Positions 14,758 to 63,034 of a stretch of 64,000 nucleotides of DNA are shown here, piece after piece. The first letter of the stretch is position 1. The number at the start of each line of letters is the position of its first letter. Below the pieces are notes generated by a model that saw only the letters and a list, made by a program, of their open reading frames with translations, searched no databases and had not been told where the DNA came from. A program made the translations under genes and the position numbers. This DNA is from Pelagomonas calceolata (Eukaryota; Sar; Pelagophyceae; Pelagomonadales; Pelagomonadaceae), in assembly GCA_918797485.1 (NCBI GenBank), contig CAKKNE010000005.1, forward strand, positions 496,001 through 560,000, written 5' to 3'.

Positions 14758-14782
14758 GCTAGCGTTTATGTAAGACACTAGC
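14758..14782. promoter_or_regulatory. Palindromic promoter element, copy 1
   Basis: GCTAGCG, six bases, then TAAGACACTAGC. It sits in the divergent gap 14537-14900, 222 bp from the lipase start and 119 bp from the SRCR-PhyH start. Nothing else is recognisable in that gap. The six-base spacer is one longer than in most full copies. Confidence 0.6.
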
Positions 14783-14900
14783 AATCTACACGAAAAATCG
14801 ACCAAGCCTGACGCGAGGCGAGGCTGTCCTAGGGATTACCCATGGGGTCGTGAGACACACATAACGCTGTCCCAGACGCCCTCGACGAGCAAGGGCAGCC

Positions 14901-16434
14901 ATGCTCCTGCTGCTGCTCATCACCACAGCGACGGCCGAATTCCTCCGCGGCGCCACACATATACAACTGGCGGGCTGCAACGCCGACTGCGGCCGCCTCG
15001 AGGTCAAGCTGTCGGATGACGACGCCTGGCGCGCCGTGACTTCCAGTAATTGGACGCGGGCCGACGCGATCAAAACCTGCGCGCGGCTCGGGTTTGAGGA
15101 CGTCGCTTCCATCTCGTCGCCCTTCGCGGCCGCGGCGGCGCGCGGCGACCGCGCCGTCCTTGGATTTGATGGGAGCGTCCGGACGTGCGTTGGCGGCGAG
15201 TGTTCGATGCCAGCAGTTGGCGTCGCCTGCCGCGCGCGCGGTCCCGTCCGCGACACGGCCGCCGCCATGGCGCGCATCGACGCCTGGGCGCCTTTGAGAA
15301 GCGCGCGCCTGCGTGCGGCGCTAAGCGTCTCTGGTGAAGGCAATGCGACGTTGTCGGAGTTGACCGTATCCATAGATGATATAGAAGCGGCGCGTGCGTT
15401 ACCTTTTGATGGCGCGGATCGCCGAGATGCGCTCCGAGCGCAACGACGGACTATCGAGTTCTTGGAACGACATCCAAGGGCAGCGGCTGCTTTACAGAGA
15501 CTCCAAGCGCGAGGTTTACTCGAGGTCACGCCCATTGGCATCGTCCTGCGGGAGGGCACGTCTTCAGATGACGCGGAGCTCGCCTACGAAGCTTACTTAG
15601 CCTCGGACCCTAATGGTGATGTCCACTTCGAGATCGATGGTAAAAGGCGCCTGGTCCCTTCACCTTCCACAAACGACGCCGTCCTGGCACTGCGGCGGGA
15701 CGGCGTCGCGCGTATCCGGGATTGGGGCGTCCTCACCGATGGCATTGCAAAGAAAGCGACGCGGTCCCTCCAAGGCTCGCGGGAAACACTCTCTTCCACA
15801 TCAAACGGGCGCGTGGCGACGGCGCGGTATGCCGATAAACGTCTAGAGCGCTTCTTTCGTTCTATCAATGAGATCGCGTCGGGCTATCTGGGAGATGCGC
15901 AGCTCTCGGGCTACAAAGTCGTGCACATCGTCAGGCCCTGTGTGGAAATCAACTGCGTCTGCTCGATGGCGTGGGGGTCACGAAGGTCTCCGAACTCACT
16001 GGTTGATTTCCACACAGGACACGACGTCGTCCAACGACACCGAGAGTTACGTCGCGGGCCTCTGGCACCACGACCGCGTCGGTAATAGGTTGAAGGCCTT
16101 CGTGTTTCTGCACGACGTCGACTGCGACGAGGGCCATCCCACGGAGGTGGCCGTCGGGTCGCACCTATTGAACTATTACCGGACGGACGCGATGGGTGCT
16201 TCACGATTTAGTAATGACTACGTGCGCGACCATTACGAGGTCGCGAAGCTCTGTGGCTCGAAGGGCGGCGGGTTCGTCGTGGATACGCATACGCTGCACC
16301 GCGGCGCCGTCGAGGGGTCGTTGCCGCGGACGGTAGTCGTCGGCGAGTACCATTCTATCGGAAAATGCGCCGCCATGGACGCCCTGGGGTTGGGGCTGCC
16401 GTGCCCTTCCGGGGACCAGTTTCTTGTGTCGTAA
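14901..16434 (+). CDS. Secreted SRCR / phytanoyl-CoA dioxygenase-like (2OG-Fe) fusion, two exons
   Basis: Exons 14901-15929 and 16018-16434 give 481 residues. A signal peptide (MLLLLLITTATAEF) precedes a scavenger-receptor cysteine-rich-like domain: GRLEVKLSDDDAWRAV, a Trp, then ADAIKTCARLGFEDV and paired cysteines to about residue 115. A helical linker follows. The C-terminal part resembles PhyH-type 2-oxoglutarate/iron oxygenases: GLWHHDRVGN gives the metal-binding HxD, LKAFVFLHDVD and HPTEVAVGSHL are core strands, and HRGAVEGSLPRTVVVGEYH supplies the distal His and the Arg. The intron splits the iron-site region, and removing it gives continuous homology. A role in modifying secreted glycans or proteins is inference. 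Confidence 0.72.
15930..16017 (+). mobile_element. Introner element with long terminal inverted repeats (88 bp)
   Basis: The element starts CTGTGTGGAAATCAAC and ends GTTGATTTCCACACAG, a 16-bp perfect inverted pair. The 8-mers outside it are GTCAGGCC and GACACGAC, 5 of 8 identical, so the target duplication is partly decayed. Splicing from GTCAGG in the left copy to the terminal CAG is phase 0 and joins VVHI to DTTSSNDTE. A second GT just inside the element (TGT then GTGGAA) would also keep frame. The 3' end matches the inverted 5' end of the apyrase intron, so it is the same family in opposite orientation. Confidence 0.8.
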
Positions 16435-16704
16435 CCGTTGTTTAGTTGCTTTGCTTCGAGCTAGGCCGCCTAGCTACCCGGTCGACGCGCGGCGGAGAAA
16501 GCTGAGTGCTGCTTGACCGGACGCCCGTAAACCGTCGCCCCGTGTTAGCTCGGAGGCGCGGCGGGCGGCGACGACGGCGAGGGGGAGCAGGCCAGGTCCG
16601 CGTCGGGGCCGTCGTGGGATAGCGTTGTTACTCGGCGAGCGGTGGGAGCGCGGGGAGCGGATGGGGGGGGGGCGCTCTAGCATGCTCGCCGCCGACGCCG
16701 CTCC

Positions 16705-17623
16705 TCACGGCTCGCCGGTCGCCGTCGTGCAGGAGTAGTTGACGGTGCCGGTCGCGGGAATCGCGTACTCGTGGCCTGCGACGAGGGGCGCGTCGCGGCG
16801 ACGGCGTCGACCTCCGCGCGTCGACGCGACATGATCGAGGACGCCGCCGCGGACGCGCGACCTGGGCAGTCGTGCAGCATCCGCACCAGAACGCGCAGCA
16901 GCAGTCGTCGCATACCCCCTCCTCATCGCAGGTGCAGCACTGGGGGGGGATGTCGTACTTGTGGCGGATCACGTAGCGAATGTACCCGATGGCGCCGACG
17001 AACGATATCACCCATAAACAGTAGAAGATGTCCGAGATGGTAGCCAACGGCATGCCGCGGTTCGAGCTCCTGCCGTAGTAGTCGTAGCCGAGGCACGAGA
17101 AGACGATGATGACGACGTAGAGGAAGAAGAAGTAACCAATGATCTTCATGCAGCTGCCCTTGCGTTTTTCGGGGTCCTGCTTCTCGTACATCTGGCCTGT
17201 GCGTACGCTATCGAGCAGGCGTCGCGTCGATGGCGTGGTCGACGACTCGACGCGACGATTCAGCACGAAGGCGCCGTGAAATTTTGATTTATGCGCAGCA
17301 TCTTGCCGAGGATCACCGCGTCCGTGCAGCACCACATCGCCATGCAACACGTGCAGATGTGGCTGCAGCACGCACAGAGGCCGGACGTGAACTTGCCCTT
17401 CTTGTCGGGCTCGGGCACGGCGACGGCCGCGACGAGCGCCTCCGTGCTTTTTACGGGCTGGGCGGTCGTGACATCGGCCTGCGTCGACGTGGGACGAGTC
17501 GCGGGCGCGAGCGGGGCGCGAGCCGCGCTTGGTTGTATTGCTTTTGGTAGGAGTGAGGTATGTCGAGAAAATCAAAGGGTTTCACCCAAAATTATGAAGC
17601 CGACGTGACACTGGGGCGACCAT
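16705..17623 (-). CDS. PLAC8-family cysteine-rich membrane protein, four exons
   Basis: Proposed exons are 17586-17623 (tentative), 17307-17527, 16855-17196 and 16705-16775, 223 residues in continuous frame. The PLAC8 signature KFTSGLCACCSHICTCCMAMWCC leads, in two blocks, to GKM/GQM, and CCAFWCGCCTTAQVARHE closes the domain. Between them, KIIGYFFFLYVVIIVFSCL and IFYCLWVISFVGAIGYI are membrane segments, and CCTCDEEGVCDDCCC is a further cysteine cluster. The last intron is supported because it restores TAQVARHEYAIP and an ordinary C-terminus. The start exon is only one option, since no in-frame Met precedes exon 2. PLAC8 proteins act at the plasma membrane in metal handling or organ-size control in plants; the role here is unknown. 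Confidence 0.65.
17197..17306 (-). mobile_element. Introner element in PLAC8 gene (110 bp)
   Basis: Read on the minus strand, the left 8-mer GCAAGATG and the 8-mer after the acceptor GCCAGATG match 7 of 8. The element begins CTGCGCATAAATC and ends GTACGCACAG. The donor is the GC of the left copy, and GCAAG is close to the standard GC-AG donor. It shares AATCAAAATTTCACGGCGCC with the intron at 2230-2302. It also contains the motif CGCCATCGACGCGACG seen in other introns of this window. Confidence 0.75.
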
Positions 17624-17702
17624 TGTTTCCCTCCGACACGCTATACCTCAGCAACTGGCGAGCTGACTTGTGTAGCCCTCAAAATGCCAAGATTTTGTGC
17701 TT

Positions 17703-17726
17703 GCTAGTGTCTTACAGGACGCTAGC
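17703..17726. promoter_or_regulatory. Palindromic promoter element, copy 2
   Basis: On the minus strand it reads GCTAGCG, TCCTG, TAAGACACTAGC. It lies in the divergent gap between the PLAC8 start (about 17623) and the P-loop kinase start (17940), 80 and 214 bp away. The rest of 17624-17939 shows no other nameable site. Confidence 0.6.
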
Positions 17727-17939
17727 TTGGTTTTTTGGTCCAGTCCACCCAGCTCGATCTAGCGCCTTGATTAGCAGCTAAACGTTTTAGTACAGCGATC
17801 GTATTGCATCGCGGCCCCATAACGCGCGCATACCCGCAGCAGTGAGCCGCACCGCTCGGTATATTACGAGCACACAACACAGCGACAGTGAGTGGATCCC
17901 AGCGCCCGCGCGAGGCGAGGCGCCACCGATAACCGCACC

Positions 17940-18746
17940 ATGCGCGCGTCGCTGGCCGCGCTGCGGCGCCGGCTCCCCGAGCGCAGACAGCTCTGGTCCG
18001 GCGCGTTAACGATGTTTTATACCGGCACACGGCCCGTCATGGTCTTCACAGCCGGCGCGCCGGGCGCGGGCAAGACCTACACCTTGCATCGCCTGTTCGG
18101 CCTCGAAAATGTTGAAATGTTAGATGCTGTTGATATGCTCGACCTGGACAGCGCGATGAAGCGCCATCCGGAGTACAGCGAGGAGCGGCCGGCGGAGCTC
18201 TACGGTAAAATCGACGCCTACAACTGGGCCAACGAGCGGGTCGAGAGGCGGTTCCAGAAGATGCTGCGGCAGCCTCGCAAGGAGGACGGCCGGGGGAGAT
18301 TTGTTTGTTTCGACGGCACGGGCACTCGCGTGAAGCGACAAATCCGTCGCATGCGGGAAGCGCGCGAGGCGGGGTTTGATGTGGTGCAACTCTACGTGGA
18401 AGTGTCCCTAGAAACGGCCTTGCGACGGAACCAACAACGAGACCGAACGGTGCCGGAAGAAGTGCTGAAGGAGTATCTCGATCGACTCGATTCTGCCGTA
18501 GAAGCCACGGTCCAGCACCCCGACGGCTTAGTAGATGCTGCTATCGCGATGAACAACGACCTGGATGATGATTTCAATACTGATTCTACGCGTTTTGGGC
18601 GACACGCCGAGTGGATCGCCTCCACGTCGCAGAAGCACGAGGCGCTCTTCGGCCGCGGCTGGCGGCACACGTTCGCGGGGCCGGAGGATCCCGGGCCGCC
18701 GCCACCGCTGGAGGAGGACGAAGAGGACTTCCGGGGGAGAACGTAA
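17940..18746 (+). CDS. P-loop kinase domain protein
   Basis: The product is 268 residues from the ATG at 17940. VMVFTAGAPGAGKTYTLHRL contains the Walker A loop. VEMLDAVDMLDLDSAMKRH is the acidic substrate-side segment, GRFVCFDGTGTRVKRQIRRM is the second strand with conserved Asp and Thr, and VVQLYVEVSLETALRRNQQR is a lid-like arginine region. The order fits small P-loop kinases of the AAA_33/zeta-like fold, which phosphorylate small molecules or nucleotides. The C-terminus ends with an acidic Pro-rich tail. The N-terminus is basic and hydroxylated (MRASLAALRRRLPERRQ) and could be a mitochondrial presequence. Substrate unknown. Confidence 0.68.
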   Translation: MRASLAALRRRLPERRQLWSGALTMFYTGTRPVMVFTAGAPGAGKTYTLHRLFGLENVEMLDAVDMLDLDSAMKRHPEYSEERPAELYGKIDAYNWANERVERRFQKMLRQPRKEDGRGRFVCFDGTGTRVKRQIRRMREAREAGFDVVQLYVEVSLETALRRNQQRDRTVPEEVLKEYLDRLDSAVEATVQHPDGLVDAAIAMNNDLDDDFNTDSTRFGRHAEWIASTSQKHEALFGRGWRHTFAGPEDPGPPPPLEEDEEDFRGRT

Positions 18747-18904
18747 TCGTGGGCTTGTGTTTCTTTCTTTCTCCGCCGCGGGGCCGGTCTCCGCGCCTGC
18801 GTCGCCTTGATGGCGTGCGGGCGGCGCATACGCCATCGACGCTGTGACTAAGAGTTACACGAAGGATATACTTATAACCAAGCACGACCGAAAAAAACAC
18901 AATT

Positions 18905-21876: not shown

Positions 21877-21886
21877 GTAGTTACTC

Positions 21887-22963: not shown

Positions 22964-23184
22964 CCTGGACGAGCGGTGCGCGTCGACGGCGCGCCGTCGG
23001 CGGAGTTTCACACGCTGCTGATTTGAACTGCGGGCGCTCAAAGTCGGCGCAGCGATGCGCGGAGGGGCGCTTGCTTGCTGGCGTGCTTCCTGACTGTGCT
23101 AATGGCTGCAGTAACAGCTCCAATGCGCCTCTGGGGCCTGGGTGTCGGTGTAAGCGGTGCTTGGACTTTAGGCCGCAGTGCGCG

Positions 23185-23208
23185 GCTAGCGGCATGTAAG
23201 ACACTAGC
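23185..23208. promoter_or_regulatory. Palindromic promoter element, copy 3
   Basis: GCTAGCG, GCATG, TAAGACACTAGC, followed by AAGCAG. It lies 222 bp upstream of the TIPIN-like start at 22963. The other flank is the transposon-bearing island rather than a gene. Confidence 0.6.
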
Positions 23209-23816: not shown

Positions 23817-24134
23817 ATGGACCACGGCACTAGAGACCCGGCGCCGGCGCCGACCACGGCGCCCGAACCCACGGAAAACACACCACAAAGACGGAAAAGG
23901 ATCGCGCAGGAACAGCTCGCGCGCGAGAAACAAGAAAATGAGGCGATAGAAGCGGAGGCGGAGTTGGCGGAAGTTAAACGGAGGAGGCGCGCGGCCGCCA
24001 AGAGACTCGCAGATTTACAAGATACAGATTACGCGTGCGGCAATCCCGAGCGGCCCTCGACGTCGCCGCAGCGCCCGCTCGGCGAGATCCGGTCGCCCGA
24101 CCTGCCCGCGGGGAGTTCGAGCGCGCGGTGTTGA
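23817..24134 (+). CDS. LINE first open frame, charged coiled-coil
   Basis: A 105-codon frame starting at ATG 23817. After a Pro/Thr-rich start it is strongly helical and charged (RIAQEQLAREKQENEAIEAE, AELAEVKRRRRAAAKRLADL), like the coiled-coil part of LINE first proteins. Past about 24060 the coding potential moves to a different frame (GKQWRLIRDGDGLIVGAEAAE), then to the reverse-transcriptase frame near 24300. So the N-terminal region of the element carries at least one frame change, or it uses frameshifting or splicing. Confidence 0.45.
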   Translation: MDHGTRDPAPAPTTAPEPTENTPQRRKRIAQEQLAREKQENEAIEAEAELAEVKRRRRAAAKRLADLQDTDYACGNPERPSTSPQRPLGEIRSPDLPAGSSSARC

Positions 24135-24174
24135 AGCGCGCGCCGCGACTGGCGGGGTATGGCGGCGGCAAACA

Positions 24175-26688
24175 GTGGCGGCTGATCCGCGACGGCGACG
24201 GACTTATAGTCGGAGCCGAAGCCGCCGAACGAAGCCTCGCACAACAGTACGAAGACCGGCAGACCGTCGACCACTCGGCGTTCGACGGGCGAGCCCATGC
24301 GCCGACCGGATGCGCGAGTGGGAGCGAATACGGCGGCGCCTGCTCGAACCGTCGGCCCGAGAATCTCGTGCGACCGCCGCCCAGCTCGACGAGGAGAAAT
24401 GGTCCGCGTGGGAGGAGCGGGCGAGGGCCTTCCCGGACCCGAGCGTCATCCCGAACGACGACATACAAGCGGCGGCCGCCCGCGACTTCACCATGTCGGA
24501 ACTTGAACAAGTCATCCTCAACGACACCTCCACCGGGACGGCGCCGAGTCCCGGCGACGGCGTCTCGTACGAAGCGGTCCGGGCGGGCGGTATGGCGCTC
24601 TGGACCGTGATCCTCTTCCTGTACAACGCCCTACTCGCTGGGTGTACTGCACCGGAGGTGTGGCTCGAGGTCTACATCCGATGGTTATACAAGAAGGGCG
24701 ACCCGACGGTCTGGACGAATTACAGAGGAGTTGCGCTCGCGAGTGTCCTACTGAAGATATACGAGCGTCTACTGAAAAATCGGTGGAGTCGCATCTACGT
24801 GCCATTACTCCGCCCCGTGTCGTGGCTCCAGGACGAGGGAGCCCCCGGCGTCGACTGCCGGCATCAGTTGTGGCTCGTCCAGGACCTTTTAGCGTACAGA
24901 CTGTACGAATTGGGCTGTTTTACGTGGGTGATGACGATTGACCTAGAGCGCGCCTTCCCGAGCACGATGCGCGAGTACGTCGCCCTAGCGCTCTGGCACG
25001 CCGGGTGCCGCGGCGCCTTCCTACTCGCCCTTTGGAATATTTTGTGCAAGGCGGGCGTGCGCTTGTCCACGAGCGACGGACGCTGGAGCGACCTGGTGGA
25101 TTTCGAGCAGGGCCTATTGGAAGGACGCGTCTTTAGCGGCGACGCGTTCGCGGTCGTGCTCGACGATCTGCGGCGCGTCCTCGAAGAGTCCGGGCTCGGC
25201 GTGCGGCTCGGAAGAGCGACGGGGCCCCAAGTTTATTGTGGGGTAGTCCTGAAAACCGACGACGTCTTCCTGATGGCGGACTCGGCGAACGACCTGCGGT
25301 TGGCATACGGCATCGTGAAGGCGTGGGCCCACGAGTTCCGATTCAACCTCTCGCTGGGCAAGCACGAGGTTATGAGAGTCGGGATGCCGTCCGTCGCCGG
25401 ACGCGTCGTGTTCTGGTCTTGGCCTCGGGGCGAGCTCGCGCCCTACGTTAGAACGCGCCAGCACTACGCGTCGTACGACCTCGTGCCGGAGGCGTACACG
25501 CTCAAGGAAGCGGTCGTTTACTTGGGTTGCTGGATCTCGGAGTCGCTGTCGGCCGACTACTCTGCGCAGAAGCGACTCTGGGAGGCGTGGGAGATCTACA
25601 AGGCGGCGAAGGACTCCGTGCAGTCCGTGTCCGAACTACGACGCGCCGACGTGCTCTCCGTCATGAACGCGTTCTTTCGCGGAAAGCAGGAGTACCCGGG
25701 CGGGCCCACCACGCCCCTGTCCGGCGAGATCGGCTTCTTCGCGTCGAAGCCCGACAAGATGAACCACGGAGGCCTCTCGGGCGAGGTCGAGAACGCGTAC
25801 CTGGCGACCCTCCGCGTCACGCTCGGCGGCGTCGCGACGCACATGCCGAACGCCGCCTTACTCGAGATCACCGGCTCGAGGTCGCCGGCGTGGCGCCGCC
25901 GCGCGAGTAGGGCGATCTTCAAGCGCGCGTTGGAAGCCGTCGCCGTTGGCGAGAGGGCCGTGGTACTCGATGTTCTACGGTCGGCGAGGTCCGACGCCTT
26001 CACCGCACGATCCATCACGCACGCACTCGACGACGCGACGACTGATCTAGGCCTGGGTCGGCGGCCGCAGACGCTCGCATACAAGCCGCAGGAGTGGCGG
26101 ACACGCGTCAAGACCGCCGCGCGGTTCCTCGAACGGAAGTGGCGCCACGCCATCCTAAGGACGGAGTCGTCGTCGCGGCGCCTGGCGGCCGCTGTCTCGT
26201 GGGACCGCGGCCCGCCGGCCCTCTCCGCGCCCTGGCGGCGCGTCTTCTTCGCCGATTCGTCCTGCAAGGGCAACACCGCCTTCCTCATGTCGACCCTGTG
26301 CGAGCAGTACCGCCTCGTGCCGCACGTGCGGTCGAAGTTCGGGGGACCGGCCGAGGGATACTGTGACATTTGCCGGACCAACGTCGCGAGCGGGAGGGCC
26401 GACATTGCGCACCTCATCTTCGAGTGTCGATCGGTCGACTTCGTCGCGACGCGCGCCCGATGGCGCGCCGAGTACGAGGGCGAGATCGCGGCCGCGGGCG
26501 CCATCTTCCCGTCCGACGCGGACCCGCTCATGGTGTCGGTCGGACTCGTGCGCCCGAAGGCCCTGCGCAACGGCGTCCGGTTTGCGACGCTCTCATTGAG
26601 GCTCGCCATCGCGTTCGTGCGGCATTGGGGCCGGTTCGAGCATCGAATCCGCGACGAGGTCCGGAGCTTGCCCCCCTGCAAGTACTAG
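24175..26688 (+). CDS. LINE reverse transcriptase
   Basis: The frame is open for 837 codons; its first ATG is at 24310. It carries the standard polymerase blocks: NYRGVALASVLLKIYERLL, motif A MTIDLERAFPS with the first catalytic Asp, motif B QGLLEGRVFSGDAF, and motif C LKTDDVFLMADSANDL with both Asp present although the usual aromatic-Ala before them is Lys-Thr. A thumb region GKHEVMRVG follows. Near the C-terminus CDICRTNVASGRADIAHLIF then FEC forms a zinc knuckle of the reverse-transcriptase-associated type (CxxC-H-C). The family is a LINE without a visible endonuclease; clade not determined. Confidence 0.82.
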   Translation: MAADPRRRRTYSRSRSRRTKPRTTVRRPADRRPLGVRRASPCADRMREWERIRRRLLEPSARESRATAAQLDEEKWSAWEERARAFPDPSVIPNDDIQAAAARDFTMSELEQVILNDTSTGTAPSPGDGVSYEAVRAGGMALWTVILFLYNALLAGCTAPEVWLEVYIRWLYKKGDPTVWTNYRGVALASVLLKIYERLLKNRWSRIYVPLLRPVSWLQDEGAPGVDCRHQLWLVQDLLAYRLYELGCFTWVMTIDLERAFPSTMREYVALALWHAGCRGAFLLALWNILCKAGVRLSTSDGRWSDLVDFEQGLLEGRVFSGDAFAVVLDDLRRVLEESGLGVRLGRATGPQVYCGVVLKTDDVFLMADSANDLRLAYGIVKAWAHEFRFNLSLGKHEVMRVGMPSVAGRVVFWSWPRGELAPYVRTRQHYASYDLVPEAYTLKEAVVYLGCWISESLSADYSAQKRLWEAWEIYKAAKDSVQSVSELRRADVLSVMNAFFRGKQEYPGGPTTPLSGEIGFFASKPDKMNHGGLSGEVENAYLATLRVTLGGVATHMPNAALLEITGSRSPAWRRRASRAIFKRALEAVAVGERAVVLDVLRSARSDAFTARSITHALDDATTDLGLGRRPQTLAYKPQEWRTRVKTAARFLERKWRHAILRTESSSRRLAAAVSWDRGPPALSAPWRRVFFADSSCKGNTAFLMSTLCEQYRLVPHVRSKFGGPAEGYCDICRTNVASGRADIAHLIFECRSVDFVATRARWRAEYEGEIAAAGAIFPSDADPLMVSVGLVRPKALRNGVRFATLSLRLAIAFVRHWGRFEHRIRDEVRSLPPCKY

Positions 26689-26722
26689 ACCGGCGCCGCG
26701 GCACAACGCGCCGTGCAACGCC

Positions 26723-28975
26723 GTGCAACGCCGTGCGGGGTTTAGTCGACGGGTTTCGTGCCCGGACGACCTTCTCGGCATCCGGCGCCCTGCCGTCGAG
26801 ACGTCGGCCCCGTAGTCCTCGACGGATTGGCGTTGATCTGAGGTTGCGTCGGGCGCCGGTCGACTCGACGCGTTCGTTCTCCTCTCCCAACCTAACGCCG
26901 GCCCTCGAGCCGACACGAGGCGATCGCAACCGGCGGTCGCGGACCGCGCGGCCCTCGTCCGCGGCGTCGCCTAGGGCAAGTGCGACGCGCGCGGGCGGCA
27001 GGCCGCGCGATACAGCGACGGCGCGGGGCCGTGACGACCGTGACAACTGACACGATGATAGGCGGCCTTGTAAAGAACGACCACGAATTCTACGCCCGAC
27101 GGCCTACGGCGTCGCCTCGGTCTACTGAGTCCACGACGCGTGCTAATTTCAGGGGGACGCGGCCGTGGCCTCGGCGACCCGCCTGTTACTTGATTTCCAG
27201 TGGCCGCTACCGTGGCTCGATGGAAGCCGGCCGCTACCGCGGGCGGGCGTTGTATCTGCGGCGTCGCCTGGATTGAGCTCGACGCGTCGCGACCGGCGAG
27301 CGGTCGCAAATCGACTCGCGACGCCGCAGAGGTGATGTGGGACCCGGCGGCCTACCGCCGCCCCCCTGAGATCAAAGCCCACCCTCGATCGGCGCGCTAG
27401 GCGTGTCGGCGGCATCAACGTGATCGTTCGCGGCCCTGGCGCGCGCTCAATCCAGGGGAGATCGACGAGGGGCGTGCAACGCCGTGCGGGGTTTACTCGA
27501 CGGGTTTCGTGCCCGGACGAGCTTCTCGGCATCCGACGCCCTGCCGTCGAGACGTCGGCCCCGTAGTCCTCGACGGATTGGCGTTGATCTGGGGTTGCGT
27601 CGGGCGCCGCTCGACTCGACGCGTTCGTTCTCCTCTCCCAACCTAACGCCGGCCCTCGAGCCGACACGAGGCGATCGCAACCGGCGGTCGCGGACCGCGC
27701 GGCCCTCGTCCGCGGCGTCGCCTAGGGCAAGTGCGACGCGCGCGGGCGGCAGGCCGCGCGATACAGCGACGGCGCGGGGCCGTGACGACCGTGACAACTG
27801 ACACGATGATAGGCGGCCTTGTAAAGAACGACCACGAATTCTACGCCCGACGGCCTACGGCGTCGCCTCGGTCTACTGAGTCCACGACGCGTGCTAATTT
27901 CAGGGGGACGCGGCCGTGGCCTCGGCGACCCGCCTGTTACTTGATTTCCAGTGGCCGCTACCGTGGCTCGATGGAAGCCGGCCGCTACCGCGGGCGGGCG
28001 TTGTATCTGCGGCGTCGCCTGGATTGAGCTCGACGCGTCGCGACCGGCGAGCGGTCGCAAATCGACTCGCGACGCCGCAGAGGTGATGTGGGACCCGGCG
28101 GCCTACCGCCGCCCCCCTGAGATCAAAGCCCACCCTCGATCGGCGCGCTAGGCGTGTCGGCGGCATCAACGTGATCGTTCGCGGCCCTGGCGCGCGCTCA
28201 ATCCAGGGGAGATCGACGAGGGGCGTGCAACGCCGTGCGGGGTTTACTCGACGGGTTTCGTGCCCGGACGAGCTTCTCGGCATCCGACGCCCTGCCGTCG
28301 AGACGTCGGCCCCGTAGTCCTCGACGGATTGGCGTTGATCTGGGGTTGCGTCGGGCGCCGCTCGACTCGACGCGTTCGTTCTCCTCTCCCAACCTAACGC
28401 CGGCCCTCGAGCCGACACGAGGCGATCGCAACCGGCGGTCGCGGACCGCGCGGCCCTCGTCCGCGGCGTCGCCTAGGGCAAGTGCGACGCGCGCGGGCGG
28501 CAGGCCGCGCGATACAGCGACGGCGCGGGGCCGTGACGACCGTGACAACTGACACGATGATAGGCGGCCTTGTAAAGAACGACCACGAATTCTACGCCCG
28601 ACGGCCTACGGCGTCGCCTCGGTCTACTGAGTCCACGACGCGTGCTAATTTCAGGGGGACGCGGCCGTGGCCTCGGCGACCCGCCTGTTACTTGATTTCC
28701 AGTGGCCGCTACCGTGGCTCGATGGAAGCCGGCCGCTACCGCGGGCGGGCGTTGTATCTGCGGCGTCGCCTGGATTGAGCTCGACGCGTCGCGACCGGCG
28801 AGCGGTCGCAAATCGACTCGCGACGCCGCAGAGGTGATGTGGGACCCGGCGGCCTACCGCCGCCCCCCTGAGATCAAAGCCCACCCTCGATCGGCGCGCT
28901 AGGCGTGTCGGCGGCATCAACGTGATCGTTCGCGGCCCTGGCGCGCGCTCAATCCAGGGGAGATCGACGAGGGGC
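26723..28975. repeat. Three exact-length 751-bp tandem units
   Basis: Units begin at 26723, 27474 and 28225, each with GTGCAACGCCGTGCGGGG, and the array ends at 28975. Units 2 and 3 appear identical. Unit 1 differs at about five positions, all within its first 170 bp or so, and is otherwise the same. The array starts 34 bp after the reverse transcriptase stop. Open frames in it occur on both strands, repeat with the unit and cross unit joints; I regard them as artefacts of GC-rich sequence. Near-identity implies very recent amplification or homogenisation. Confidence 0.92.
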
Positions 28976-30643: not shown

Positions 30644-30950
30644 GGCGCGAGGGTATGTTCCCGGGCCGCTACTCTCAAATATTTGGTCGCGGCAAACGAC
30701 TAGGCTGTATTCTGAATTTGAGTCATTCTTTTGACGCTACTGAGGCGTATCTTTGAATTTGCTAGTATGTCGATTACGCTAGCTCCGAGTTTATAAAACA
30801 ACACTTAATTCGGCGGAAAATTGGTACACGACCTTCTATCAATGTGATATAATACTGAGGGGCCGCGTCGCGACACGAAACCCGTCGGCTGATCACGGCG
30901 GCACCGCGGGACTTGGAACCGGGAGCCGCGAGGGTAAGTTCCTCGTTCGT
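30644..30950. repeat. Short repeat pair around a G-rich motif
   Basis: CGGGAGGCGCGAGGGTATG at about 30644 and CGGGAGCCGCGAGGGTAAG at about 30929 match at all but two positions, and both continue TTCC. The second copy lies 60-80 bp from the polycystin stop codon. Confidence 0.5.
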
Positions 30951-31023
30951 ATAGCAGCCGACGACTCCCCAAGACGCCATCGAAGCGACGCCCAGTAGTC
31001 CTAGCGCCGCCTACAGAAGAGTC

Positions 31024-35213: not shown

Positions 35214-35236
35214 GCTAGCGTAGTACCGACACTAGC
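35214..35236. promoter_or_regulatory. Palindromic promoter element, diverged copy 4
   Basis: GCTAGCG, then TAGTACC, then GACACTAGC. The ends match and the centre differs from the other copies. It lies in the divergent gap 34986-35410, 229 bp from the F-box-like start and 175 bp from the start at 35411. Otherwise the gap shows nothing nameable. Confidence 0.4.
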
Positions 35237-37533: not shown

Positions 37534-37729
37534 CGGCGGCGTGCGCGGCGCTGCTGCGCGCTGCTGGGCTGCAGGCAAGGTTGCTGCAGGCAAGTTGTGC
37601 TGCACTGGCGCGTGCGGCAGCAGCAACAGGCGTTCAGTTGCGGCTGCTGTGTGAGCGCTTCGGTCCTCTACTTGCTTTTGCGGCCTATTACAAGCGATAT
37701 TCAAACAAAAACTTGCCTCGCTAGTGTCT

Positions 37730-37753
37730 TACATGCCGCTAGCCCGAAGATCG
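37730..37753. promoter_or_regulatory. Palindromic promoter element, copy 5
   Basis: On the minus strand it reads GCTAGCG, GCATG, TAAGACACTAGC. It is in the divergent gap 37534-37890, 197 bp from the apyrase start and 138 bp from the BspA-type start. No other site stands out in that gap. Confidence 0.6.
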
Positions 37754-37890: not shown

Positions 37891-39795
37891 ATGCAGTGGG
37901 AGACCGAGGCGCCAACGATGATGGCGGAACCAGAGCCAGCGATGATGGCGGAAGAAGAGCCAGTGATGATGGAATCAGAACCAATGATGGAAGCAGAGCA
38001 GGCGCCGTCGTCGCTGGCGGCGGAGCCGGAGGCGCCGGTCTTCGGCGAAGAGATGGTGGAGGCCACGGCGGAAGAGCCTTACGGCGAGGTCCCGGAGGAG
38101 ACGAGCGCTGTGGAGGGCGTGGTGGTGGAGGGCGTGGCGGCGGAGGAACCTCAAGCCGAGGTGCTGGGGGAGACGGGCAGGTCACGAACCACGGAGGGCG
38201 AAGCCATGCTGGCCGTCGGCCACGCCGCCTACGCGCGCAAGCAATGGCCCGCGGCCATGAAGGCGTTCCAGCAGTCGGCGGAGGCCGGCAACGCGGAGGG
38301 CGCCTGGGAGCTGTCGCTCATGCACGCCCATGGCAAGACCGGCGTCGTGGACAAGGACCAGGCGCGCGAGTGGCTGAAGATCGCGGCCGACGGCGGCGCG
38401 GTAAAGGCGCAGATGTTCCTCGCGCAGATGTCGGCGTTCGGACGGGGCGGCTACGAGAAGGACGAGTCGGTGGCGTTCGAGTACTTGACGCGCGCCGCGG
38501 ACCAGGGCAACGCCCACGCGACGCACCAAGTGGGCGTGCGGTATTTGCACGCCGTCGGCGTCGAGCAGGACCTGGACAAGGCGATCGAGCATCTCGAAAA
38601 GGCCATCGAGCGCGGCTCGAAGGACGCCGTGAAAGATCTCAAGATCGCGCAGAAGAAGAAGAAAAAGGAGGTGACGGCCGGACTGGCAGAGGAACAGCGC
38701 GCCGCAATTGCTGCGTTCAAAAGGATAGATGCCAACGGGGACGGCGAGCTGACTGCCGAGGAGATCTACCGGGCGCTCTCGAAGAAAAATGCGGACGTGA
38801 CCCTCGAGCGCGTGCAGGAGATCATGGCGAAGGCCGATAAAGATCAAAATGGCACGATCAGTCAGGAGGAGTACCTGGACGCCGTCGCCGCCATGGGACC
38901 TGGATGGATTGGCTCTTGGCTCGGAAAAATAGCCGCGCGAGTCACCGCGGCGTTCAGCGGAGAGGCAATGCCGGAGGCAGCGGAGACGGTGAAGTGTCTG
39001 ACAAACGAAGAACTGCGAGTCTGGGTGAACCGCTGGTGCAGCGGCGACCGCAGTTTGCCGCCCATCTCGACGTGGAATACAAGTAAGGTCACGGACATGA
39101 GCGAGCTATTCATGAGGCAGAAGGGTTTCAACGACGACATCAGCGCGTGGGATACCTCTAGCGTTACGACGATGAGGTTGATGTGCAGCGGCGCCTCGTC
39201 GTTCAACCAACCGCTGAACGACTGGCGGGTCGACAACGTCACGGATATGTGCCAAATGTTCCGCGACGCCAAGTCGTTCAATCACCGGCTAAACGACTGG
39301 CGGGTCCACAAGGTCACGAATATGAGCTGGATGTTCAGCGGCGCCTCGTCGTTCAACCAGCCGCTGAGCGACTGGCGCGTCGACAATGTCACGAATATGC
39401 AAGGGATGTTCTACGGCGCCTCGTCGTTCGACCACCCGCTAAACGACTGGCGGGTCGACAACGTCACGAATATGAGCAATATGTTCCTCTGGGCCAAGTC
39501 GTTCAACCACCCGATCGGCGCATGGCGGGTCGACAAAGTCACGAGTATGCGTGCGATGTTCAACGGCGCCTTTGCGTTCAACCAGCCGCTGAACGACTGG
39601 CGGGTCGACAAGGTCACGGACATGTGCGGGATATTCATGGCCGCCAAGGCGTTCAACCAGCCGCTGGGCAACTGGCGCGTCGATAACGCCACGAATGTGG
39701 ACAATATGTTCGAGGACTCGGCCTTCAGCCACTGGGAGGACCTCGGTGACCCGAAACTTAGGTCACAGAAGCCATCATGCTGCGCCGTCTCGTGA
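37891..39795 (+). CDS. Sel1-repeat / EF-hand / BspA (DUF285) repeat protein with CaaX end
   Basis: The product is 634 residues in one exon. The N-terminus (about 1-95) is acidic with Met-Met repeats. Sel1-like repeats follow (AMKAFQQSAEAGNAEGAWEL, AREWLKIAADGGAVKAQMFL, AFEYLTRAADQGNAHATHQV). A pair of EF-hands binds Ca2+ (KRIDANGDGELTAEE and AKADKDQNGTISQEEYLD). The C-terminal half holds about eight BspA-type units of roughly 33 residues around FNQPLNDWRVDNVTDM. It ends SCCAVS, where CAVS is a plausible prenylation box and the preceding Cys could be palmitoylated. Membrane-tethered calcium-responsive scaffold is an inference. Such repeats occur in bacteria, trichomonads and many algae. Confidence 0.82.
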   Translation: MQWETEAPTMMAEPEPAMMAEEEPVMMESEPMMEAEQAPSSLAAEPEAPVFGEEMVEATAEEPYGEVPEETSAVEGVVVEGVAAEEPQAEVLGETGRSRTTEGEAMLAVGHAAYARKQWPAAMKAFQQSAEAGNAEGAWELSLMHAHGKTGVVDKDQAREWLKIAADGGAVKAQMFLAQMSAFGRGGYEKDESVAFEYLTRAADQGNAHATHQVGVRYLHAVGVEQDLDKAIEHLEKAIERGSKDAVKDLKIAQKKKKKEVTAGLAEEQRAAIAAFKRIDANGDGELTAEEIYRALSKKNADVTLERVQEIMAKADKDQNGTISQEEYLDAVAAMGPGWIGSWLGKIAARVTAAFSGEAMPEAAETVKCLTNEELRVWVNRWCSGDRSLPPISTWNTSKVTDMSELFMRQKGFNDDISAWDTSSVTTMRLMCSGASSFNQPLNDWRVDNVTDMCQMFRDAKSFNHRLNDWRVHKVTNMSWMFSGASSFNQPLSDWRVDNVTNMQGMFYGASSFDHPLNDWRVDNVTNMSNMFLWAKSFNHPIGAWRVDKVTSMRAMFNGAFAFNQPLNDWRVDKVTDMCGIFMAAKAFNQPLGNWRVDNATNVDNMFEDSAFSHWEDLGDPKLRSQKPSCCAVS

Positions 39796-40790: not shown

Positions 40791-40814
40791 GCTAGTGCCT
40801 TACAGGACGCTAGC
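40791..40814. promoter_or_regulatory. Palindromic promoter element, copy 6
   Basis: On the minus strand it reads GCTAGCG, TCCTG, TAAGGCACTAGC. It lies between the divergent Sen2-like start (40627; 164 bp) and the monoacylglycerol lipase start (41025; 211 bp). Nothing else is recognised in 40628-41024. Confidence 0.6.
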
Positions 40815-42103: not shown

Positions 42104-42126
42104 GCTAGTGCCTTACAGGATGTAGC
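42104..42126. promoter_or_regulatory. Palindromic promoter element, copy 7
   Basis: On the minus strand it reads GCTACATCCTG then TAAGGCACTAGC; the left arm is one base short. It is 238 bp before the BTB gene start (42364) and 66 bp past the lipase stop. This is the only copy lying between two genes on the plus strand. Confidence 0.5.
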
Positions 42127-44945: not shown

Positions 44946-44969
44946 GCTAGCGGCTTGTAAGACACTAGC
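44946..44969. promoter_or_regulatory. Palindromic promoter element, copy 8
   Basis: GCTAGCG, GCTTG, TAAGACACTAGC, followed by AAGCAG as in copy 3. It lies in the divergent gap 44846-45186, 101 bp from the unknown gene's start and 218 bp from the CDK start. Confidence 0.6.
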
Positions 44970-54032: not shown

Positions 54033-54065
<33 letters not shown>

Positions 54066-54308: not shown

Positions 54309-54483
54309 TTAGCTGCCTTTGACCGAGGTAGGGGTACTTTGCCCGCGCGCTTCGCTTAGGCGCCGCGAGCTCGCTCTGAGTGCTGTCAGCTCTTCAGGGA
54401 CCTATAAGCGATCCCCCAGAGCTCCAGCTATTCAAACTGGGCGTTCCTCGTGTAGAGCGCGCAAGACGCAAGGCGAACTTGAG

Positions 54484-54504
54484 GTAGCGTAGTGACACAC
54501 TAGC
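54484..54504. promoter_or_regulatory. Palindromic promoter element, diverged copy 9
   Basis: GTAGCG, then TAGTG, then ACACACTAGC; the left arm and the TAAG core are degraded. It is 176 bp upstream of the TRANK1-like start at 54308. It lies in the gap 54309-54693, which also holds the repeat at 54590-54655. Confidence 0.35.
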
Positions 54505-54655: not shown

Positions 54656-54693
54656 GACCCCTGATTACGTAACAAGATTTCATATGACGCACA

Positions 54694-56354: not shown

Positions 56355-56888
56355 TTTAGGCACCGCGCCAGATCGTCCTCCCGCCGTGTGGGCAAAATGG
56401 GCGATCGGTCCGAGCCGTGAACGAGGTACTAGGAGCCGTTCGGATGACTAGTGGCGTGTCCGGAGGCGTAGCGATTTCGTCGTGTGGGGTGTGAGCCAAA
56501 GCGACACAACAAGCCGAGGTAAGCCTGCAGGAGAGCCTCCCGGGGATCAGAACGCCCTGGAGCCGCAGACGCTCGTTCGAGCTCAGCATAATCCGGTAGC
56601 GGCATAAAGACACTAGCAAGCATCCCTGGGCTTCGGGAACTTGTGCTGTTTCTTTTTACACCTACCCTCCCTGAGCTCGCGCACGGCTTGGAAGTACAAT
56701 GCTAGGACTAGTGGGCGGAGCCCCTGGGGGGAGGCACCTGTCTTAGAATACCCACGGCACGGACGCCACCCACGAGTCCTAGCACCGTACGGAAATACGA
56801 CGCGTGCCCCGAGACGCCGTCGCCGCGCGCCCCTACTACAGTGATAAGCAAGGTATCTTGTGTACACGGGGAGGCAGCGCCCCGAAAC
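56355..56888. other. Intergenic region upstream of the 54694 gene
   Basis: About 530 bp between two minus-strand genes. It holds the palindromic element at 56595-56617. The remainder, including 56640-56880, has only biased short frames. Confidence 0.4.
56595..56617. promoter_or_regulatory. Palindromic promoter element, copy 10
   Basis: GGTAGCGGCA then TAAAGACACTAGC, followed by AAGCA; the left arm is slightly degraded. It is 241 bp upstream of the start at 56354 and lies past the 3' end of asparagine synthetase. Confidence 0.5.
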
Positions 56889-59464: not shown

Positions 59465-60346
59465 ATGCAGCGCCTGCTCCTCGCCTCACTCGTGGCCGCA
59501 GCCGCCGCCGCGGCGCCGCGACGCGTCGCCGTGACGGGCGCCGGCGGCCAGACGGGCCAGCTCGCGTTCCGGCGCATGTTAGCGAGACGCGACGAGTTCG
59601 ACCCGATAGGAATAGTACGAAACGCGCAAAGGCGGGACGAGCTCGTCGAGAAGGGAGTGCCAGCGGACAACGTGCGCGTCGCCGACGTGACTGATGCACA
59701 AGCGATCCTCGAAGCGCTCGAGGGCTGCGAAGCGTTGCTCATCGGCTCGTCGGCGAAAGTCGCGACGCTCGAGTTCGACACTGGTGTGATTGACCCGGCG
59801 ACGGGCCGGCCCAAGCTCGGCTTCCCGAAGGGCCAGCCCTATGAAGTGGACTGGCTCGGCCAGAGGAATCAGATTGACGCCGCGAAAAAGTGTGGTTGTA
59901 CCCATGTCGTGATCTGCTCGAGCATGGGCGGGACAAATCCTGATCACATGCTCAACGGCTTGGGGCGGGACGACGGCGACCCTGCGACAAAAGGGAACAT
60001 CCTCCAGTGGAAACGGAAAGCTGAGCAATATTTGATTGAGAGCGGGCTCACGTACACGATCATTCATCCGGGCGGCCTGGTGGACAAGCCGGGCGGCTGC
60101 CGCGAATTAGTCGTAGGTGTCGACGACGTCATGGTCGACGGCGAGGGGACGAACACGATTCCTAGGGACGACGTCGCCGAGACCATGGTCCAGGCCCTGC
60201 GCCACGAGGCGTTCCGGAACCGGTCCTTCGACCTGCGGTCGAAGCTCGAGGGCGACGGCGACCCGACGTCCGACTTTGCGCGGCTCCTGGCGCCGCTCGG
60301 GGGGCGCGACTGCGACTACTCGCTGGGGAAGATTCCGGACGATTAA
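59465..60346 (+). CDS. NAD(P)-binding SDR/NmrA-like protein, signal-bearing
   Basis: The product is 293 residues from the ATG at 59465. The N-terminus (MQRLLLASLVAAAAAAAPRR) looks like a signal or plastid-entry sequence. VAVTGAGGQTGQLAFRRM is the dinucleotide loop, RVADVTDAQAILEALEGCEA the second strand and helix, and HVVICSSMGGTNPDHMLNG the extended-SDR active-site region. WKRKAEQYLIESGLTYTIIH, then PGGLVDKPGG, is typical of atypical SDRs of the At5g02240/TIC62 type. The family includes NADP(H)-binding plastid proteins; a redox or tethering role is inferred. Confidence 0.8.
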   Translation: MQRLLLASLVAAAAAAAPRRVAVTGAGGQTGQLAFRRMLARRDEFDPIGIVRNAQRRDELVEKGVPADNVRVADVTDAQAILEALEGCEALLIGSSAKVATLEFDTGVIDPATGRPKLGFPKGQPYEVDWLGQRNQIDAAKKCGCTHVVICSSMGGTNPDHMLNGLGRDDGDPATKGNILQWKRKAEQYLIESGLTYTIIHPGGLVDKPGGCRELVVGVDDVMVDGEGTNTIPRDDVAETMVQALRHEAFRNRSFDLRSKLEGDGDPTSDFARLLAPLGGRDCDYSLGKIPDD

Positions 60347-60362
60347 TAATAGTGTGTCTTAT

Positions 60363-61952
60363 CTAGAGGTACACGACCACCGCGGCGGCGCCCTCCGACT
60401 GCTCCGAGATGCGTGCGCCGGCCCGACCGAACGTGAGTTCGTGCATGTCTCCGTCCGCATCCAGCTCGATGCGCCAGCAGTAGTTGAACTTTTCGGCTTC
60501 ATAGGTCTTCCTGACGTGTTCCAGCACCATTTGATTCATACGATCACCACCTACATCATTTTCTCGAAAATGCGCGAGCTGGTCCTCCAAAGATTCTCCT
60601 TTGTTTGCCCCTCCGTGACGGTCGTTCGTCCCACCGATCACCATAATCTGGTCCCCGACGACGACACAGGTGGAGTGCTCGTAATTGACCCCCGAGAGAG
60701 GAGTCGTCACGCCCTCCTGCAGCGCCCGGAGGTCGTCGGCCGTCGGCGCGCGGTCCACTTCCACCACGTAGCGCTCCTCCTTCTTCTGCGACGGTCGCGC
60801 GTGCGAGAAATGGCTCGGCAATTCTCGAATCTCCGTCCACCACTTGCCGAGCCATTTCTCTAGGTGCTGCTCGTCGTCCGTGACGAGGATGTCGAAGGGC
60901 CCGGTGCGGCCTGCGCTACACTGTTCGAACGCGCCGTAGTCGCCGATGATCCGTCCCTTCGTGCCGCGCACCGCGACCGGCCGGCAGATGCCAAGGCCGC
61001 CGTCAGTATTCCAACCCCTCACGCGATCCGGCGTGACGTCGCTCTTCTCGACGCGGCGGAGCACGGTCGGCTCCTCGTACGTGCGCCCACGCCGAACGGC
61101 GAGTAACCGCGGCGCATAAAGGTAGCAATGTCGCCCGTGGAAGATCATCAGGTGGCTGCCGACCGCGGCGGCACAGCCCCCGAATACTTTGCCCTTGACG
61201 GGCGGGAGGAACTCCCAGCGGTCCGCGGCCGCGTCGTAGCGCTCCACAGTATTGCTCTCGTCGCCGAACGCCTGGCCGCCGGCGACGACGAGCTGACCTT
61301 CGAGCAGAGCGCCCACCGCCCGCCAGCGCGGGTGACCCAGCCGCGCGCCGGCCGACCAGAGCCCCGTCTTCGGATCAAAGATCTCGCACGACCGGAGTTC
61401 GGGTCCGGTCTGACCAATACCGCCCGCACACATAATGCGCCCATCCGGCAGCGCGGCCACGATGGGCGCGTGGCGGGGGCACGGCACGCCCGGCGCCTCG
61501 CTCCACGTCGCCGTCCAGAGGTCGTAGACGAGCGTCCTTTCGGGCGCCTCACCAAATTTGTGACTACCGCCCACGACATATATCTTGCGGCCGACGGCCG
61601 CGGCGCCATGGAGATAGCGCGGCTCCGGCATCGGCGGGCCGTCGAACCATGGCCCACCGAGGCCAATCCTAAAGCTGATCTTCGTTGAGATGTTGCCGCT
61701 GGTGCCTGGAAAATAGTCGCTCCCGCCGATCAGCGCGATGAGCGGCTCGGTGTCCATCGTCGCGCGCAGGTCGCTCAACTCTTTGCTCTCCACCGAGGCC
61801 CGCCAGGATTTACAGACGGCGCGCGCCTGGACGAGGCTTTTGAGGTCGACAGGGGCCAAAATACGAGCCAGGAGCTCGTCCGGCAAGTAGTTGGCGCCAG
61901 TGGTCATGGAGGCGAAATCATTCGTCATCGATGCAACGTCGTCCGTAGCCAT
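60363..61952 (-). CDS. F-box / Kelch-repeat protein
   Basis: The product is 529 residues from the ATG at 61952. The F-box-like region is at about 20-50 (YLPDELLARILAPVDLKSLV, QARAVCKSWRASV). Kelch blades follow: YLHGAAAVGRKIYVVGGSHK, HAPIVAALPDGRIMCAGGIG, WRAVGALLEGQLVVAGGQAF and VFGGCAAAVGSHLMIFHGRH, with a final blade near STCVVVGDQIMVIGGTNDRH after a non-repeat insert. The stop is only 17 bp from that of the convergent SDR gene. Kelch F-box proteins choose substrates for SCF ligases; in plants and algae some are light- or clock-linked, which cannot be judged here. Confidence 0.82.
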   Translation of the reverse strand: MATDDVASMTNDFASMTTGANYLPDELLARILAPVDLKSLVQARAVCKSWRASVESKELSDLRATMDTEPLIALIGGSDYFPGTSGNISTKISFRIGLGGPWFDGPPMPEPRYLHGAAAVGRKIYVVGGSHKFGEAPERTLVYDLWTATWSEAPGVPCPRHAPIVAALPDGRIMCAGGIGQTGPELRSCEIFDPKTGLWSAGARLGHPRWRAVGALLEGQLVVAGGQAFGDESNTVERYDAAADRWEFLPPVKGKVFGGCAAAVGSHLMIFHGRHCYLYAPRLLAVRRGRTYEEPTVLRRVEKSDVTPDRVRGWNTDGGLGICRPVAVRGTKGRIIGDYGAFEQCSAGRTGPFDILVTDDEQHLEKWLGKWWTEIRELPSHFSHARPSQKKEERYVVEVDRAPTADDLRALQEGVTTPLSGVNYEHSTCVVVGDQIMVIGGTNDRHGGANKGESLEDQLAHFRENDVGGDRMNQMVLEHVRKTYEAEKFNYCWRIELDADGDMHELTFGRAGARISEQSEGAAAVVVYL

Positions 61953-62107
61953 GGGGACGGTATGCGCGCCGCGGCGGCGTGCCAAAAAATATAATTGGTC
62001 TCACAAAACGGGTTTTCCGGCGCCCCGCGGACGGACTCGGGTCAGTGCTAGAGGGGCTGCTCAATAAGCGACCCTCTGAGTAGCGGGAATTTGTTCCATT
62101 CTTACTC

Positions 62108-62815
62108 CTACCGGACGCATCGCGCGTACCACGCGCTCCGCTGCGCCGCGACGCCAGCCTCGAACGCCGCACGCACAACGCCGTCGTCGGGATCATCCAC
62201 CCAAGAGGCGTCGCAGGTCCCCAGGGACGACGAGACGTCGCTGGATGACGCGTCGTCCTCTCCGGGAAACGCCCGGAGCAGCGCGCGCCACTCCGAACCA
62301 CGCAAGTAATTCGACGCCCACCCAGCGCCTAACCGTTCCAAATCGACGCACGCCAGCGCGAGGGGCAGGTCGTAGAGCTGCGCGAGGAGGTAGGCCGCAA
62401 AGGCGCGCGAGCCCCGGCCGCAGACGTAGACCGGAGGTCCCTCGACCAAGTGCGGCGCCAGGTTCCGCGCCTGCACCACGACGTCGTCCGACACGACCTC
62501 AGCGATGCGGAAGTCGTACTCGAGCCGCTCCAGCGCGCCCCTTCTTTCCCAGTGGGGATCCGGCCCGACCATCAAGAGCCCAGGCACGGCCCAGAAGCTT
62601 CCGGGAATCGGGCCCGCTCGACTGCGGAAGGGGAAGGGCGGCGCCCGCGCCAGTATGGCGGGGTGCGGCCGCCACGCGAGCGCCGGTTCAGGCTCCGGTC
62701 CCGGTAACGGGCGCGGCGGGTAGACGTAGTTCGCTCGGTGGTGGTCTATCGGTTCGTCGTCGTCGCCGTGCGGGAGCCAGGGGTCGTCGCTGCGCGGAGG
62801 CAGGACGTCGGTCAT
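62108..62815 (-). CDS. Proline-rich protein with a possible degenerate phosphatase-like core
   Basis: The product is 235 residues from the ATG at 62815 (MTDVLPPRSDD). A Pro-rich first third (YPPRPLPGPEPEPALAWRPH) precedes VPGLLMVGPDPHWERRGALE, RLEYDFRIAEVVSDDVVV and VEGPPVYVCGRGSRAFAAYL. The last vaguely recalls a dual-specificity phosphatase loop, but the Cys-to-Arg spacing is one short, so it is unlikely to be active as such. The C-terminus is acidic. Family uncertain. Confidence 0.5.
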   Translation of the reverse strand: MTDVLPPRSDDPWLPHGDDDEPIDHHRANYVYPPRPLPGPEPEPALAWRPHPAILARAPPFPFRSRAGPIPGSFWAVPGLLMVGPDPHWERRGALERLEYDFRIAEVVSDDVVVQARNLAPHLVEGPPVYVCGRGSRAFAAYLLAQLYDLPLALACVDLERLGAGWASNYLRGSEWRALLRAFPGEDDASSSDVSSSLGTCDASWVDDPDDGVVRAAFEAGVAAQRSAWYARCVR

Positions 62816-63010
62816 CGTTTTCGCAGAGTGGCCGCGTGACACTGTGGCCTTTGTCGGAGAGCGTAGGGGCAGCCCCTCACTGGCGCCGCGGCGGCCGGCG
62901 TCCCGTGGCGGCGGGCGTCTGGCGCTTAGAAAGGGTCAGTTGGGCTTGTGCTGGACGTCCGCGACGCACTCGGGCTCCGCAAGCCTCCTGAGAGCCTCGG
63001 GGCGCTGTGC

Positions 63011-63034
63011 GCTAGTGTCTTACATGCCGCTAGC
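63011..63034. promoter_or_regulatory. Palindromic promoter element, copy 11
   Basis: On the minus strand it reads GCTAGCG, GCATG, TAAGACACTAGC, the same as copies 3 and 5. It is in the divergent gap 62816-63148, 196 bp from the Pro-rich gene's start and 115 bp from the oxygenase start. Confidence 0.6.

Follow-up and report, generated by a model that had tools for sequence, protein, structure and literature searches.

What joins the many unrelated genes of the pelagophyte alga Pelagomonas calceolata that carry the same long, quasi-palindromic word a short way before their start codons? The question is raised by a stretch of 64,000 nucleotides (here the window; C5:496001-560000), in which a sequence-only reading had pointed to eleven copies of a shared element and had proposed either a promoter element of the core or bidirectional kind or some short mobile sequence with a habit of settling in promoters. 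This sequence, called element A below, was sought with the pattern GCTAGCG-N-TAAGACACTAGC, in which N is a variable spacer and which measures 24 bp with a spacer of 5. The search covered the assembled genome of 32,445,274 bases in 8 contigs; for strain RCC100, the genome report gives a nuclear genome of 32.4 Mb in six contigs, with a plastid and a mitochondrial sequence in addition (PMC9481584). Element A is real and genome-wide and, judged from sequence and placement, looks like a general two-way promoter element. It is probably a promoter-located site of the general regulatory factor type, recognized by one putative sequence-specific protein or by two binding together.

All eleven sites are present in the window, with 0-4 mismatches to the pattern, although two of them had been placed slightly off (at 37730 for 37720 and at 54484 for 54483). 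Six exact copies occur there against 0 in 100 dinucleotide-preserving shuffles, and a tolerance of up to 4 mismatches raises the count to 12, while the reversed window still gives 0. The spacer, described earlier as five or six bases long, in fact ranges from 3 to 6 among the eleven. The intergenic location holds, with eight of the eleven in divergent and three in tandem gaps according to our own gene calls; the earlier tally had put seven between divergent genes. The copies also lie upstream of start codons as had been said, at 126-251 bp from the middle of the motif to the nearer called ATG, a range given before as 80-241 bp. Copies on both strands had likewise been seen correctly. The ends, which had been written as GCTAGYG / CRCTAGC, are not interchangeable: read in a single orientation, the left end is GCTAGCG and the right end is CACTAGC, and the apparent Y and R appeared because orientations had been mixed.

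Beyond the window, the count across the genome that the sequence-only reading had proposed as a check returned 1,371 exact copies with spacers of 3-7 bases (693 on one strand and 678 on the other), while the reversed pattern gave 0. Mismatch-tolerant counts cover spacers 4 and 5. At up to 3 mismatches, 2,424 copies have a spacer of 5 (control 10) and 1,086 a spacer of 4 (control 6), which makes 3,510 for the two together (control 16).

The position of element A relative to genes was followed in a sample of 264 kb, comprising the window and C1:1,000,001-1,200,000, two regions of a 32.4 Mb genome. Genes were called with a simple coding hidden Markov model of our own, trained on both regions, which yielded 143 genes and 64 introns (0.45 per gene), five of these introns being shorter than 30 bp and necessarily artefacts. 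These figures are in line with the published annotation, which reports 16,667 genes with 0.45 introns per gene (PMC9481584). At up to 4 mismatches, the sample contains 56 copies, against 2 for the reversed control. Element A is present in 35 of 57 divergent gaps (36 copies) and 10 of 27 tandem gaps (11 copies), but in only 2 of 57 convergent gaps (2 copies), and the 202 kb of coding sequence hold two copies. Fisher tests separate divergent from convergent gaps at p 9e-12 and tandem from convergent gaps at p 1e-4. The C1 region, which the sequence-only reading had not covered, gives the same picture by itself, with 27/43 divergent, 7/19 tandem and 1/43 convergent gaps occupied. Even scatter, location 3' of genes and membership in a longer transposon had been named beforehand as patterns that would speak against a promoter role, and the tests for them in these 264 kb did not refute it.

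As expected of a general promoter element, element A is concentrated ahead of start codons and scarce both in coding sequence and in convergent gaps, and it is tolerated in either orientation. It stands in the upstream gap of 80 of the 143 called genes. Among 69 gene-copy pairs at up to 3 mismatches, which are not independent because one divergent copy counts for both genes, the copy lies 350-100 bp before the ATG in 64. Within divergent gaps the copies are central (mean fraction 0.51, standard deviation (sd) 0.12, n=30, Kolmogorov-Smirnov p 0.007), partly because element A keeps off both start codons. Relative to the gene, 33 pairs have the same and 36 the opposite orientation, a tally in which divergent copies count once each way by construction; at called tandem promoters, three copies are in the same orientation and six in the opposite one. 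Core promoter elements of the TATA or initiator type keep to one orientation, which element A does not. The proposal of a core or bidirectional promoter element therefore survives in its promoter-located part, which is borne out by gap classes, distance to the ATG and the orthologous gaps described below, whereas a core element in the strict sense is not supported, because both orientations occur and the distance to the ATG is broad.

The element itself is long and sharply bounded. Its consensus, a-GCTAGCG-K-C-M-T-G-TAAGACACTAGC-AA, with the preferred spacer K-C-M-T-G and a short AA tail, was taken from 75 aligned instances, of which 45 are sample sites with 3 mismatches or fewer and 30 are exact loci, a set biased to good sites. 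Information drops within a few bases of the 24 bp, leaving a weak AAGCA tail. Measured over 47 sample sites from divergent or tandem gaps, the information content is about 31 bits for the core and 2.4 for the 3' tail, figures inflated by site selection at up to 4 mismatches; about 14 bits would suffice to locate 4,000 sites, and element A carries about twice that. Candidate reasons for this excess are two readers, one long reader, or renewal from a template. Near-exact right halves lie inside a full motif in 36 of 38 cases and near-exact left 12-mers in 22 of 22; since near-exact halves are almost never found apart, a modular reading in which each half acts alone was rejected. The bare 7-mer GCTAGCG occurs 25 times outside motifs, 16 of them in coding sequence. 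The spacer letters are mostly independent in 126 exact copies, with eight of ten position pairs at p above 0.05, and only pairs 9-12 (p 0.004) and 10-11 (p 0.015) standing out among the ten tested. Divergent gaps of the sample also contain a second promoter word, GGGCAGC / GCTGCCC, seen 56 times against 9.5 expected, whereas convergent gaps have 3 (7.0 when scaled); it lies nearer to the ATG than element A.

Conservation can be judged from pelagophyte DNA filed among bacteria. A scan of bacterial and archaeal contigs found the exact motif in three marine bins, and the GTDB bins MED672, ERR599032 and ERR599052 contain contigs with stretches that match a pelagophyte alga (L062, L063, L064 and L069-L072). 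These stretches are contamination and are usable as a comparison species. The contig L063 (NZGT01000013.1), assigned to Spirochaeta, runs collinear with C6:2,236,569-2,246,679 at 83-94% identity by block; though binned as bacterial, it is pelagophyte DNA. With spacer 5 and no more than 3 mismatches, its bin has 5 matches (control 1), and the other two bins have 1 (control 3) and 2 (control 1). Two of the four L063 copies are kept in P. calceolata with motif identities of 22/25 and 21/22, while the 40 bp upstream of them match at 18/40 and 23/40 (random 21, sd 2.1). The third copy is inverted in the same syntenic gap, matching at 22/24 after reverse complementation against 18/27 as it stands, which suggests an in-gap inversion, perhaps eased by the inverted ends, with either direction tolerated. 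Of three further stretches from the same bin, L069 and L071 align to the P. calceolata genome through the motif, judged by alignment span only. L064 aligns at one end only, motif included, at 89%, and the 96% match of L062 around an exact copy, found also at C1:2154907, is too close to inform. Conservation at orthologous promoters is thus seen in three of four L063 copies by letters and in two of three further copies by alignment span, small numbers from one relative. Viral contigs gave 0 exact matches for two patterns, in a set from which records near the alga's own genome were possibly left out.

Several known systems resemble element A in part. The sites of the yeast general regulatory factors Abf1, Reb1 and Rap1 are orientation-free, lie in nucleosome-free promoter gaps and serve unrelated genes; they are shorter and carry less information, and their binding and nucleosome effects are known. 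Element A is like them in its freedom of orientation and its unrelated genes, but it is longer, richer in information and known from sequence alone. RE1/REST and CTCF sites are high-information zinc-finger sites with thousands of copies, and the RE1 halves tolerate variable spacing. Element A matches these in information and copy number, but they are not confined to promoters. Another likeness is offered by the CGCG element TCTCGCGAGA of vertebrate CpG-island promoters, for which two-way transcription is reported (PMC6192621); both are palindromic promoter elements before many unrelated genes. The CGCG element is a perfect palindrome of ten bases with experimentally tested activity, whereas element A has 24 bases, unlike ends and a variable spacer. 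The mammalian M4 / SBS motif ACTAYRNNNCCCR, bound by THAP11, Ikaros and ZNF143, is likewise bipartite, highly conserved and promoter-associated, with more than one reader in the case of M4; it has 520 human promoter copies where element A has thousands (PMC5006282). Inspection of the consensus found neither TCTCGCGAGA nor ACTAYRNNNCCCR, and an identity with the CGCG (BANP-type) element or with M4 was rejected.

A general DNA-binding factor fits these observations because the genes are unrelated, orientation is free, the place in the gap is central and the motif is retained while its flanks turn over. By analogy with the CGCG element and the yeast general factors, the putative bound protein would keep a nucleosome-free gap open, and RNA polymerase II (Pol II) would start on both sides. 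A single copy near the middle of a head-to-head gap could in this way serve both genes. The putative reader would be bipartite or dimeric, with two linked modules, because quasi-palindromic ends are joined by a spacer of 3-7 bp.

A number of results weigh against such a promoter site. Twenty-two of the 57 divergent gaps lack element A, and five copies lie in called introns 256-486 bp long, which may be mis-joined tandem gaps. Divergent and tandem gaps differ weakly (Fisher p 0.06); the tandem per-gene rate of 0.37 alone predicts about 0.60 of divergent gaps, as seen, so two promoters per divergent gap could account for the weak excess. The information of about 31 bits exceeds what a single factor needs. 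In the relative, the 40 bp downstream of the two kept L063 copies match at 28/40 and 30/40, above random; the fourth L063 copy, with 4 mismatches, is matched nowhere in the 211 bp of P. calceolata sequence compared, and the L070 copy fails to align at the syntenic place. Furthermore, identical rare spacer inserts occur at unlinked loci whose flanks do not match each other. Two-copy divergent gaps point the other way: independent acquisition predicts, by arithmetic, about eight among the 35 occupied gaps, and only one is seen, which speaks for a single copy shared by both genes.

The rare inserts bear on a second explanation, in which a very short palindrome, either mobile or copied, comes to lie in open promoter DNA without having a necessary role there; as an account of the present state it is improbable. 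Exact copies with spacers of 8-25 bases number 16 genome-wide (control 0), a few of which simply hold a second left half. Eleven such loci (L051-L061, two of them one duplicated locus) were examined, and they include a 34-bp form at three loci and a 30-bp form at three further distinct loci, whose 11- or 15-base spacers contain an inverted copy of neighbouring letters. Together with thousands of near-identical copies and more information than a site needs, these recurrences favour movement or copying, as does one four-base flank match against 0.18 expected. Because the reverse complement of adjacent letters is found within the inserts, recurrent template switching could also have produced them, and copying between sites is conceivable as well. 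On one side L055 and L061 share 150 identical bp, and on the other they are 88% identical; each is some 120 kb away from a contig end, one in C3 and one in C6, where the genome report describes a shared duplication (PMC9481584). Target-site duplications, sought at lengths of 2-8 in the 75 instances, are not seen overall (2 bases, 3 against 5.3 expected; 3 bases, 0 against 0.8; 4 bases, 1; longer, 0). The mobile half of the sequence-only reading is accordingly disfavoured as a present state by this lack of a duplication pattern, the sharp edges, the little linkage among spacer positions and the presence of element A in orthologous gaps with diverged flanks. Mismatches in the 45 sites also favour certain transversions (G16C 8 times and C24G 7 times; 36 transversions against 16 transitions). 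A mobile origin in the past is still conceivable. Two particular kinds of element were rejected. A miniature inverted-repeat transposable element (MITE) or other terminal-inverted-repeat transposon is contradicted by the missing target-site duplications and by the absence of a long shared internal sequence beyond the ends. An introner does not fit 24 bp with 49 of 56 copies intergenic, five in called introns and two in coding sequence; the introner length peak in this species is given as about 210 bp (PMC9481584).

The other explanations keep a function and change its kind. An ordinary activator site for one large gene programme, such as growth or light, would agree with the promoter position and with the presence of element A at only about half of the called genes; it is nonetheless an unlikely reading, as the window neighbours have no function in common and the frequency is high for a regulon. 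Freedom of orientation and the central place in gaps, along with the analogy to long CTCF-type sites, would also suit an insulator, a replication-licensing site or a chromatin anchor that lies in divergent gaps by chance. That possibility is considerably fainter, given the near absence from convergent gaps and the preferred distance to the ATG, both of which point to promoters. Fainter still is a hairpin acting in RNA, or a DNA cruciform, even though GCTAG at one end of element A is able to pair with CTAGC at the other and the spacer is of variable length. In 50 aligned spacer-5 sites (exact or at up to 3 mismatches), position 6 is C in 50 and position 19 is A in 48, so that a C6:A19 mismatch is kept where the change C6T would give a full stem of 7 bp; divergent gaps show no CpG depletion (observed/expected 1.14), and the absence of T at the CpG position 6 is for that reason weak evidence alone. 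The loop TAAGACA is, moreover, conserved as strongly as the stem, and a mid-gap divergent copy cannot be in both transcripts unless these overlap.

Element A was not found in print by the literature searches made. The main texts of the two P. calceolata genome papers mention neither motifs nor promoters nor palindromes, and there such words as orientation, divergent, intergenic and bidirectional are used in unrelated senses or are absent. A literature search for a promoter motif of the P. calceolata genome found none, and a text search for pieces of the element A sequence gave no alga paper by title among the matches listed. Searches on general regulatory factors, introners, divergent gene pairs, ZNF143, pelagophyte cis-regulation and strand alternation brought up analogues or nothing relevant, judged by their listings.

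The window copies and other features are collected in Table 1. Pfam searches of 29 open reading frames (ORFs) of the window agree with the earlier statement that the linked genes share no function. Genes adjoining copies match PAF-acetylhydrolase, P-loop kinase, Swi3, GDA1/CD39, EF-hand/Sel1, tRNA-splicing endonuclease, alpha/beta hydrolase, BTB, HAD hydrolase, protein kinase and UvrD helicase/ankyrin families. SRCR and PLAC8 matches among the neighbours are below the curated cut-off, and some adjoining genes are without any Pfam match. Rfam and tRNA scans of the window gave no matches. Among the other contents of the window, a reverse-transcriptase ORF (Pfam RVT_1) has PDB matches to R2 retrotransposon proteins at E 4e-5, and after it a 751-bp unit stands in three tandem copies with 98% identity. 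An EF-hand/Sel1 gene that has stretches of DUF285, a Pfam family described from Mycoplasma, contains 75-bp repeats.

Table 1. Copies of elements A and B and other features of the window (positions within the window)
Feature	Position	Strand	Mismatches	Spacer	Gap
Element A	14758..14782	+	0 (exact)	6	divergent
Element A	17703..17726	-	0 (exact)	5	divergent
Element A	23185..23208	+	0 (exact)	5	divergent
Element A, doubtful degenerate copy	30761..30783	-	4		called convergent
Element A	35214..35236	+	3	4	divergent
Element A	37720..37743	-	0 (exact)	5	divergent
Element A	40791..40814	-	1	5	divergent
Element A	42104..42126	-	4	4	tandem
Element A	44946..44969	+	0 (exact)	5	divergent
Element A	54483..54504	+	3	3	tandem
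Element A	56595..56617	+	2	4	tandem
Element A	63011..63034	-	0 (exact)	5	divergent
Element B	30990-31008	-
Element B	56698-56716	+
Element B	56768-56786	-
Reverse-transcriptase ORF and 751-bp units	23950-28972
75-bp repeats in EF-hand/Sel1 gene	39087-39786

A second shared word, element B, has the core GGTGCTAGGACTAGTGGGC; with as many as 2 mismatches allowed, the genome contains 398 copies of it (control 0). In the 264-kb sample, at up to 4 mismatches, it is found in 5/27 tandem, 1/57 convergent and 0/57 divergent gaps, and also in called introns, with two further weak matches in coding sequence. It lies on the gene strand in four ++ gaps and once on each strand in one -- gap. Element B may mark tandem gene boundaries, a reading qualified by its location, in part at least, within a dispersed repeat some 155 bp long. 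This repeat, which looks SINE- or introner-like (SINE, short interspersed nuclear element), begins with element B at L063:299-455 and has at least 39 further matches in the P. calceolata genome (40 of 271 candidates scored). By eye, in the first 2.5 Mb of C1, three of ten exact B copies lie within 150 bp of an exact A.

Strand alternation is strong in the sample: of 141 pairs of neighbouring called genes, 114 have their members on opposite strands (27 same-strand, p 6e-14). Where both neighbours have at least 300 codons, 49 pairs are opposite and 9 same-strand, and if the five motif-bearing introns are counted as tandem gaps, the same-strand share becomes 32/146. In a speculative and rather unlikely extension, elements A and B would be two long shared signals that punctuate the genome. 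The first would nucleate two-way promoters between strand-alternating pairs, its reader being a bipartite or dimeric factor, perhaps a domesticated transposase, that would span about two turns of DNA, and element B would mark the tandem boundary. The over-specification of element A would then come from template renewal, to which in-gap inversion and the recurrent long-spacer forms would belong, plus selection.

Element A may serve about half of the genes of this alga and would thereby offer a handle on transcription start in this lineage. It bears on compact genomes with strongly alternating gene strands, and it poses the question of why a site present in thousands of copies should hold about double the information required to find it.

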